A stretch of 64,000 nt of DNA from the NCBI GenBank assembly GCA_015069695.1, contig JADCRZ010000004.1:248001-312000 (forward strand), in the 5' to 3' direction. The stretch is from Williamsia sp. (lineage in GTDB: Bacteria > Bacteroidota > Bacteroidia > Chitinophagales > Chitinophagaceae). The notes below the pieces were generated by a model. It was given only the letters and a program-made list of their open reading frames with translations, did no database searches and had not been told where the DNA came from. A program made the position numbers and the translations under genes. Positions 30,860 to 59,687 of the stretch are shown here, piece after piece; position 1 is the first letter of the stretch, and every line of letters begins with the position of its first letter.

Positions 30860-31822
30860 ATGAAAATATCACACGCAATTATAAGCGAAGAATTGGCTGT
30901 TTTTGAAGAAAAATTCAGAAAATATGTAAAAAGCAATGTTTTATTATTAGACAGAATCATGAGTTTTATAGTAAAACGTAAAGGAAAACAACTACGTCCG
31001 ATGTTCGTTTTACTCACAGCCAAACTCTGCGGTGATATCAATGAATCAACTTACCGGGCTGCATCCCTTGTTGAACTTCTTCATACTGCATCTCTTGTAC
31101 ATGACGATGTAGTAGACGAATCGCTGGAAAGACGGGGATTTTTTTCTACATACGCTTTATGGAAAGCCAAGGTTTCTGTACTCGTAGGTGATTATTTACT
31201 TGCAAAGGGTCTTTTACTCTCTTTGGACAACAGTGATTTTCGTATTTTACAGTTGTTATCAGAAGCCGTAAAAGCTATGAGTGAAGGTGAATTGCTGCAA
31301 ATGGAAAAATCACGCACCCTGAACCTGCAGGAAGACAGCTATTTTGAAATCATTAAAAACAAAACAGCCTCCTTGCTTGCTTCTGCCTGTGCAGCCGGCG
31401 CCTACTCCGTTACGCAAAATGAAGTGTATGCAGACAAGATGCGGGCATTCGGGCAGAATGTAGGCATCGCATTCCAGATAAAAGACGACCTGTTCGATTA
31501 TGGATATGAAGACGTGGGAAAACCCACGGGAAATGACATCAAGGAAAAAAAGATTACGCTTCCTATGATATATACCCTGGGCAAAGTAGGAGCTTCTACC
31601 AAACGCGAAATCATCTACATCATCAAGAATCAAAACCGGGACAAAAAAAAGGTCAACCAAATTATCCAGGAAGTGGTGAAAGCAGGTGGTGTGGAATACG
31701 CAACAGAGAAGATGTTTCAATACCGCGACAAAGCCCTGGAAATTCTGTATGAGTTTCCCGACAATGATATGCGGCGTGGGTTGGAAGAGCTGGTCCGGTT
31801 CACCACCGACCGCAAATATTAA
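30860..31822 (+). CDS. Polyprenyl diphosphate synthase
   Basis: 320 residues. The first Asp-rich motif is LVHDDVVDES (about residues 79-88) and the second is KDDLFDYG (about 213). Both are DDxxD, as in long-chain trans-prenyltransferases, and GKQLRPMFVLLTAKL precedes the first. It chains isopentenyl units to make the side chain of menaquinone or a similar lipid; the chain length cannot be told from sequence. It is divergent from the OmpA gene, and recJ follows 99 bp later. Confidence 0.92.
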   Translation: MKISHAIISEELAVFEEKFRKYVKSNVLLLDRIMSFIVKRKGKQLRPMFVLLTAKLCGDINESTYRAASLVELLHTASLVHDDVVDESLERRGFFSTYALWKAKVSVLVGDYLLAKGLLLSLDNSDFRILQLLSEAVKAMSEGELLQMEKSRTLNLQEDSYFEIIKNKTASLLASACAAGAYSVTQNEVYADKMRAFGQNVGIAFQIKDDLFDYGYEDVGKPTGNDIKEKKITLPMIYTLGKVGASTKREIIYIIKNQNRDKKKVNQIIQEVVKAGGVEYATEKMFQYRDKALEILYEFPDNDMRRGLEELVRFTTDRKY

Positions 31823-58484: not shown

Positions 58485-59483
58485 TTACTGGGCAGCCAGC
58501 AATCCTTTTTCAACCAGGTACTCTGCTATCTGAACAGCGTTGGTAGCTGCCCCTTTGCGCAAGTTGTCACTTACGATCCACATATTGAGGGTGGCCGGCT
58601 GCGTTTCATCCCTTCTGATCCTGCCAACAAATACCTCATCGCGTTCGTGTGCGTCCATGGGCATCGGGTACTCCTGTGCAGCAGGATTGTCGGTTACCAC
58701 AACGCCGGCTGATTGGCTCAACAGGTCTTTTACTTCCTGTACGTCGTAATCTTGCTCAAATTCTACGTTTACACTTTCACTATGGCCACCCATCACCGGA
58801 ATGCGTACAGTGGTGGAAGTTACCCGGATAGAATCGTCCATCATGATCTTCCTGGTTTCATTCACCATCTTCATCTCTTCCTTGGTGTAGCCATTGTCTA
58901 AAAAGACGTCTATCTGCGGAATCACGTTCAGATCGATGGGGTATTTGTAAGCCATTTCGCCTTTGATACTTTGGCGTTCGTTCATCAGCTGGTTCACGGC
59001 CTTTACACCTGTACCTGTTACGCTTTGATAAGTAGAAACAACCACTCTTTTGATCCTGTATCTTTTGTGCAGCGGATAAAGCGCTACCACCATTTGAATT
59101 GTAGAACAGTTGGGGTTGGCAATGATCTTGTCATTCTCTGTAAGTACCCCGGCATTCACTTCGGGGACCACGAGTTTTTTGGAAGGATCCATTCTCCAGG
59201 CACTTGAGTTATCGATCACGGTTATACCGGCCTCCGCGAAGCGGGGTGCCCATTCCAGCGAGGTGCTGCCCCCGGCAGAAAACAGGGCCACCGAAGGCTT
59301 TGCGGCAATAGCGTCTTCAGCGCTTACAATCCGGTATTGCCGGCCCTTAAATTCCACTTCCTTGCCGATCGACTTTTCAGATGCAACGGGAATCAATTCG
59401 GTTACCGGAAAATTTCTTTCGGCAAGTACCTGCAACATTTTGGTACCCACCAGGCCTGTGGCGCCTACAACTGCTACTTTCAT
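58485..59483 (-). CDS. asd: Aspartate-semialdehyde dehydrogenase
   Basis: 332 residues from MKVAVVGATGLVGTKMLQVL at 59483; a longer frame to 59582 would read through the leader terminator and lacks family support. The NADP loop GATGLVG is at 7-13, and the catalytic Cys126 lies in NPNCSTIQ. HSESVNVE also fits. It reduces aspartyl phosphate to aspartate semialdehyde, the branch point to Lys, Met, Thr and Ile. Its leader looks like a transcription attenuator. Confidence 0.96.
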   Translation of the reverse strand: MKVAVVGATGLVGTKMLQVLAERNFPVTELIPVASEKSIGKEVEFKGRQYRIVSAEDAIAAKPSVALFSAGGSTSLEWAPRFAEAGITVIDNSSAWRMDPSKKLVVPEVNAGVLTENDKIIANPNCSTIQMVVALYPLHKRYRIKRVVVSTYQSVTGTGVKAVNQLMNERQSIKGEMAYKYPIDLNVIPQIDVFLDNGYTKEEMKMVNETRKIMMDDSIRVTSTTVRIPVMGGHSESVNVEFEQDYDVQEVKDLLSQSAGVVVTDNPAAQEYPMPMDAHERDEVFVGRIRRDETQPATLNMWIVSDNLRKGAATNAVQIAEYLVEKGLLAAQ

Positions 59484-59535
59484 TGTTTGGAATGGTTTAA
59501 AATGATGATGTGTTTTCTGCTTGTGACAACAAACA

Positions 59536-59564
59536 AAAAAGCCTTCCGGGTGGGAAGGCTTTTT
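59536..59564 (-). terminator. Attenuator-like terminator in the asd leader
   Basis: On the minus strand a 12-bp stem (59564-59553 with 59547-59536, loop CACCC) is followed by TTTTTTG. It lies after the leader ORF and about 52 bp before the asd start. The left arm contains CCTTCCC, which can pair instead with GGGAAGG at 59599-59593. Confidence 0.88.
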
Positions 59565-59585
59565 CGGAGTATCTTGATACAAGAA

Positions 59586-59642
59586 TCACGCACCTTCCCT
59601 GCGGAGGAAAATCTTGCTGTGCTTCTTGGTATTGATGATCAT
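59586..59642 (-). CDS. Probable asd leader peptide
   Basis: An 18-codon ORF from ATG (59642) to TGA (59588-59586), peptide MIINTKKHSKIFLRREGA. Nine of the first eleven residues (Met, Ile, Ile, Asn, Thr, Lys, Lys, Lys, Ile) belong to the aspartate family. The start lies about 8 nt after the predicted transcription start, and the terminator follows 21 nt after the stop. The layout matches ribosome-stalling leader peptides of biosynthetic operons. Confidence 0.6.
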   Translation of the reverse strand: MIINTKKHSKIFLRREGA

Positions 59643-59656
59643 TGTTTTCACGGCCG

Positions 59657-59687
59657 CAAAAATAACCATAGAAATACATCTGCCAAA
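59657..59687 (-). promoter_or_regulatory. Promoter of the asd leader
   Basis: On the minus strand, TTTG (59687-59684), a 19-nt spacer, and TATTTTTG (59664-59657) match the Bacteroidetes consensus exactly. Transcription would begin near 59650. Confidence 0.82.

Follow-up and report, generated by a model that had tools for sequence, protein, structure and literature searches.

What does a short open reading frame (ORF), placed between a promoter and an intrinsic terminator, do in front of asd? The window analysed here is the whole 64,000-nucleotide (nt) stretch of contig JADCRZ010000004.1 from Williamsia sp. (Chitinophagaceae, Bacteroidota), and the leader and asd both lie on its minus strand. 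The sequence of this locus and of its relatives makes it very probable that asd is controlled by a classical ribosome-mediated transcription attenuator. The initial annotation had located a promoter, an ORF of 18 codons beginning at ATG (59642-59586), GGGAAGG, CCTTCCC, a T6 run and asd, and all of these coordinates are right; its 12-bp terminator is correctly placed and is extended by a terminator scan to a stem of 14 pairs (59566-59534). In the order of transcription the elements are:

59657-59687, minus strand: promoter of the Bacteroidota type, TTTG (59687-59684), a 19-nt spacer and TATTTTTG (59664-59657), identified from the sequence.
59586-59651, minus strand: leader peptide ORF, probably MKTMIINTKKHSKIFLRREGA followed by a stop, from GTG 59651, as judged from the sequence and the starts in relatives.
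59616-59632, minus strand: strand A, which belongs to segment 1 and shares bases with the Asn-Thr-Lys-Lys-His-Ser codons; partner of A' by the minimum free energy (MFE) fold and compensatory changes.
59603-59611, minus strand: strand b', TTTTCCTCC, inner segment 1; partner of B in the predicted MFE fold.
59593-59599, minus strand: strand B, GGGAAGG, segment 2; the antiterminator strand, predicted to be covered when a ribosome sits on the stop codon.
59577-59591, minus strand: strand A', GCGTGATTCTTGTAT, outer segment 2, from the fold and covariation.
59534-59566, minus strand: intrinsic terminator, segments 3 and 4; left arm with C (CCTTCCC, 59558-59552), right arm, and T6 (59540-59535).
58485-59480, minus strand: asd, an ORF of 331 amino acids encoding aspartate-semialdehyde dehydrogenase, the gene proposed to be regulated.

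These strands allow three mutually exclusive pairings: A and b' with B and A', B with C, and C with C'. The leader RNA has a predicted folding energy of -38.2 kcal/mol against -23.8 kcal/mol for shuffled sequences (z = -4.3; 0 of 200 shuffles). The 1-2 pairing of the initial annotation, TTTTCCTCC with GGGAAGG, does occur in the predicted structure; the principal 1-2 stem, however, is A:A', an outer stem absent from that annotation which is longer and better conserved (within 59632-59616 with 59591-59577).

Genome contigs gave 80 asd loci, 24 of them with a leader of the same build; these 24, a congener (locus L083) and the window make up an alignment of 26 leaders, on which the covariance model R1 is based. 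Asd homologues (up to 84% identity) lie directly downstream of the leader in relatives. An alignment of asd upstream regions from Chitinophagaceae had been named at the outset as a check on the proposal, and it reveals a conserved ORF together with conserved alternative pairings: A:A', B:C and C:C' all carry compensatory changes, which when mapped on the Asd tree number 10, 7 and 15, respectively, on single branches. The first alignment, not fitted to any model, shows covariation of A:A' and C:C' (22 cells with two-sided change against 6.8 in shuffles); the model-fitted alignment gives 66 against 16.6, a count that reflects an alignment fitted to the model. The B:C pairing lies outside R1. Its own duplex energy beats that of permuted partners (z = -7.6; 0 of 2000 permutations), A:A' behaves in the same way (z = -6.6), C:C' is likewise better than permutation, and comparative support for b':B is weaker (z = -2.5). 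The own pairs of A:C and A':C, taken as negative controls, are no better than permuted ones. In one leader (L018) the terminator has shifted from CCTTCCC to GCCCC and B has changed in match. In leaders with short ORFs B lies outside the ORF yet is conserved; B is therefore kept as RNA, not merely as coding sequence. An RNAalifold consensus on a MAFFT alignment recovers the terminator alone because of register shifts. As in an attenuator, a 1-2 hairpin and a mutually exclusive antiterminator both show compensatory change (A:A' and B:C, the column count for B:C being modest), and an intrinsic terminator precedes the first structural gene, as judged from the terminator scan and covariation in relatives.

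The reading frame first assigned to the leader stands and its start moves upstream. GTG 59651 is in frame with ATG 59642, lies 5 nt past the -7 box and falls where the ORFs of relatives start in the alignment, and the congener genome, the other one of the genus, likewise has GTG there, so that the leader ORF is probably 21 codons long with almost no 5' untranslated region (5'UTR). The spacing from box to start in relatives is mostly 4-10 nt. Entropy in the leader ORFs rises over codon positions 1, 2 and 3 (0.41, 0.83 and 1.07), the pattern expected of a translated ORF, and variation in the conserved Lys and Thr codons is mostly third-base. A TAnnTTYG/A box stands immediately 5' of the ORF in 64 of 66 relatives (shuffled expectation 17%), accompanied in 60 of the 66 by a spaced upstream TTG. 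The arrangement is that of an attenuator, a promoter upstream of a short ORF whose codon-like variation suggests translation. A unit with its own promoter, terminator and conserved ORF could also be a separate small gene (small ORF or small RNA) that by chance ends before asd, with the asd promoter further downstream. We consider this very unlikely: the interval between terminator and gene (median 48 nt, minimum 18) often leaves no room for a promoter, and the TAnnTTYG box, a -7-like motif, occurs in one of 66 such intervals as against the 64 of 66 before the ORF, which makes a downstream asd promoter improbable. Nor would a separate gene explain the three alternative pairings or the match between codons and gene described below, and the strong matches inspected precede amino-acid genes only.

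How widespread is the leader? Among 296 genomes of the Chitinophagaceae, a family of soil and water bacteria, 226 have an R1 match at E <= 0.01 and about 190 have one below 1e-4; asd lies downstream in 29 of the 30 best-scoring loci, dapA in the other. The leader is also present in a cultured relative, Niastella yeongjuensis (L003). The remaining 70 of the 296 genomes, about a quarter, have no R1 match. In the part of the order that was sampled, matches outside the family are weak (best 1.5e-5), and the asd loci inspected in Mucilaginibacter, Pedobacter and Saprospiraceae have no such leader. Weak matches elsewhere in the genome of the window (L115-L121) revealed no leader before an amino-acid gene, and five low-scoring loci (L156, L161, L164, L169 and L179) were judged to be chance matches.

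Eight genomes have two strong R1 matches, one preceding asd and the other dapA, and weaker matches added further dapA leaders as well as over 20 hisG leaders, for example MKQTTHIHHHHLPIG. The two gene labels rest on translated proteins which we take to be DapA (MSLRQTL..GTGVALVTPF) and HisG (start ..IAIQKSGRL..); hisG of the window's own genome is confirmed by TIGR00070. Lys-rich dapA leaders occur in several genera (L123, L125, L126, L129, L131, L132, L134, L137, L141-L144, L152 and L153). Both types resemble the asd leader in layout, promoter spacing and switch logic; the dapA leaders differ in being Lys-rich with less Met and Thr, the hisG leaders in their His codons and their GGTAAGC/GCTTACC strands. 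Since the dapA leaders match the asd leader model strongly, they probably arose from the asd leader by copying and were redirected to the lysine branch. The hisG leaders may share a common origin with the asd leader or may have converged on it. In the window's own genome a His leader, MKRSHHTHLFAET followed by a stop, precedes hisG (L183, G000:C152, hisG at 31258); it shares the layout of the asd leader, with a -7 box, a GGGTAAGC strand and, ahead of the gene, a GGGCTGACC hairpin resembling a terminator. The same genome has no such leader before dapA, thrA or the second homoserine dehydrogenase gene. At another locus (L176, G098:C47:82900-83028, plus strand) a Lys-rich leader ORF, MNSVIVLKIKKNKLFRKGRPV and a stop, is combined with strands of the hisG type, GGGTAGGC and GGGCTTACC; it precedes a 151-amino-acid ORF resembling a GNAT acetyltransferase, with no obvious biosynthetic gene.

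Which amino acids would the leader sense? Sensitive codons are defined as those at which a stall would free the antiterminator. Lysine makes up 33.5% of them in asd leaders, against 9.7% of codons elsewhere in the ORF and 3.4% of the sensitive codons in hisG leaders; its share in dapA leaders is 37.6%, and in hisG leaders 42.5% are histidine. With lysine, the ORF is enriched for an amino acid of the downstream pathway precisely where a stall matters, as in an attenuator. Methionine accounts for 6.8% of sensitive codons in asd leaders vs 0.7% in hisG leaders (p = 2e-5) and threonine for 17.1% vs 12.3% (p = 0.08); asd leaders also exceed dapA leaders in both (p = 0.009 for Met, p = 0.04 for Thr), all in tests that treat codons as independent and ignore relatedness. 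Codon content tracks the downstream gene: asd leaders favour Lys, with Met and weakly Thr, dapA leaders Lys, and hisG leaders His. It is correct that nine of the first 11 codons from the ATG encode Met, Ile, Asn, Thr or Lys, as the initial annotation pointed out, but its proposal that aspartate-family amino acids are sensed is borne out, by comparison of sensitive-codon shares with hisG leaders, for Lys and Met and weakly for Thr, and finds no support for Ile and Asn. As regulatory codons, Ile (8.1% in asd leaders, 10.1% in hisG leaders) and Asn, tested on leader codon shares, were both rejected.

A structured leader with a terminator might instead be a ligand-binding riboswitch or an attenuator bound by a protein, with no role for the ORF, and in other bacteria asd is under the control of a lysine riboswitch. 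For the present leader we regard this as extremely unlikely, as the leader codons are conserved with mostly third-base variation and switch to His before hisG while the layout is unchanged. No Rfam family reaches its gathering score in the window, including the lysine riboswitch (L-box) and other cis-regulatory families, and an Rfam search of six loci at a lax threshold gave nothing convincing.

If asd is controlled by an attenuator, lysine could be the sole regulatory amino acid, with the Thr and Met codons owed to pairing constraint and drift. We find this credible, if somewhat short of an even chance: hisG leaders are nearly as rich in Thr, so that strand A alone (CATACA) may account for part of it, and in dapA leaders Lys is retained while Met and Thr are lost. 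Against lysine alone stand the enrichment of Met in asd leaders over both hisG and dapA leaders and that of Thr over dapA leaders, in comparisons that leave relatedness aside. More tentatively, the attenuator may be multivalent, reading Lys, Met and Thr together so that asd is set by whichever end product is short, and the asd, dapA and hisG leaders may be one switch re-aimed via its codons and its B and C strands.

The position of the ribosome is predicted to decide between the pairings. B:C pairing was computed on the RNA up to the end of C with a ribosome at each codon, 12 nt ahead of the A site being masked and the start codon counted as 0. The window leader is predicted to form 0.05 B:C pairs without a ribosome, 7.9 with a ribosome stalled at codons 5 to 13, and 0 with the ribosome at the stop codon; for 56 asd leaders the corresponding values are 3.6 without a ribosome, 7.5 at Lys codons and 0.1 at the stop. 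Overall, folding predicts that the antiterminator is released by a stall on codons 4-14 and that the terminator stays when the ribosome is at the stop codon or absent. The stop codon is within ribosome reach of B in the long and short ORF classes alike. In the mechanism we propose, the leader would be translated while it is transcribed. With charged tRNA-Lys plentiful, the ribosome would reach the stop codon and cover B; C would therefore pair with C', and RNA polymerase would terminate about 55 nt before asd. When lysine is scarce the ribosome would stall over A, B would pair with C in place of the terminator, and asd would be transcribed. Probably tRNA-Thr is sensed too, and in many relatives tRNA-Met. 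A leader that is not translated would keep B locked in the A/b':B/A' hairpin and terminate by default. In this way the aspartate-family branch-point enzyme would be under feedback from the end products, lysine foremost.

Several points weigh against an attenuator of this kind. The window leader is divergent and lacks the consensus KHTKRTKK; it has four Lys codons, three of them among the sensitive codons, and a stall at its first Lys, Thr and Met codons has no effect in the folding predictions. Some relatives are predicted to form B:C without a ribosome (mean 40% of maximum), and the 12-nt footprint assumed for the ribosome ahead of its A site is taken from other bacteria. Covariation of B:C by fixed columns is modest (14 vs 7.6), partly because of register shifts. 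Where several frames or starts were possible the ORF was chosen by its Lys and His content, which slightly favours these two amino acids.

The mechanism is classical, and the asd leader adds an unusual lysine specificity. The enterobacterial thrL (Rfam RF00506) and his, trp, leu, ilv and phe leaders share with it a promoter and a short ORF rich in pathway codons; thrL and the classical attenuators also share the 1-2, 2-3 and 3-4 pairings and an intrinsic terminator before the first gene. Unlike thrL, the leader precedes asd and not thrA, has Lys and not threonine or isoleucine as its main codon, has almost no 5'UTR and uses a Bacteroidota promoter. Thr_leader (RF00506) has no match at gathering score in the window and no significant sequence or model match; a lax search yields only 25.3 bits (E = 0.73) on the minus strand of L001, against a cut-off of 55. 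In Sinorhizobium meliloti a translated short ORF, SEP5, with six Thr and three Lys codons lies in the 5'UTR of an 'aspartate dehydrogenase' gene and has been suggested to encode a leader peptide of the Thr/Lys pathway (PMC10117765). SEP5 differs in belonging to the Alphaproteobacteria and, in the accessible text of that report, in having no attenuator structures described; there is no sign of common origin. Within the phylum, leader-peptide attenuators, by inference the same general mechanism, have been suggested before amino-acid operons of Flavobacterium psychrophilum from transcription-unit data, the accessible main text giving neither asd nor the amino acid (PMC9723704), and there are hints of leader-peptide attenuation in Bacteroides (PMC7366714). 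A survey that reported histidine leaders in bacilli was aware of earlier leader-peptide systems in Proteobacteria and Actinobacteria only (PMC2965389). The combination of asd, leader peptide and attenuation was not found in the literature searched, which mostly excluded subscription papers, so that an earlier description is possible.

What is understood of leader-peptide attenuation comes mainly from Proteobacteria and Actinobacteria; for Bacteroidota the literature found gives no more than hints. The asd leaders form a defined, conserved family with a testable Lys sensor codon, which is rare among leader-peptide attenuators, and the enzyme they would control stands at the branch point of the pathways to lysine, threonine, methionine and diaminopimelate. 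In a phylum where Shine-Dalgarno sequences play a small part, one may ask how ribosomes load on a leader with almost no 5'UTR. With His, Lys and mixed leaders within one bacterial family, the tuning of one RNA switch to different amino acids may be compared.
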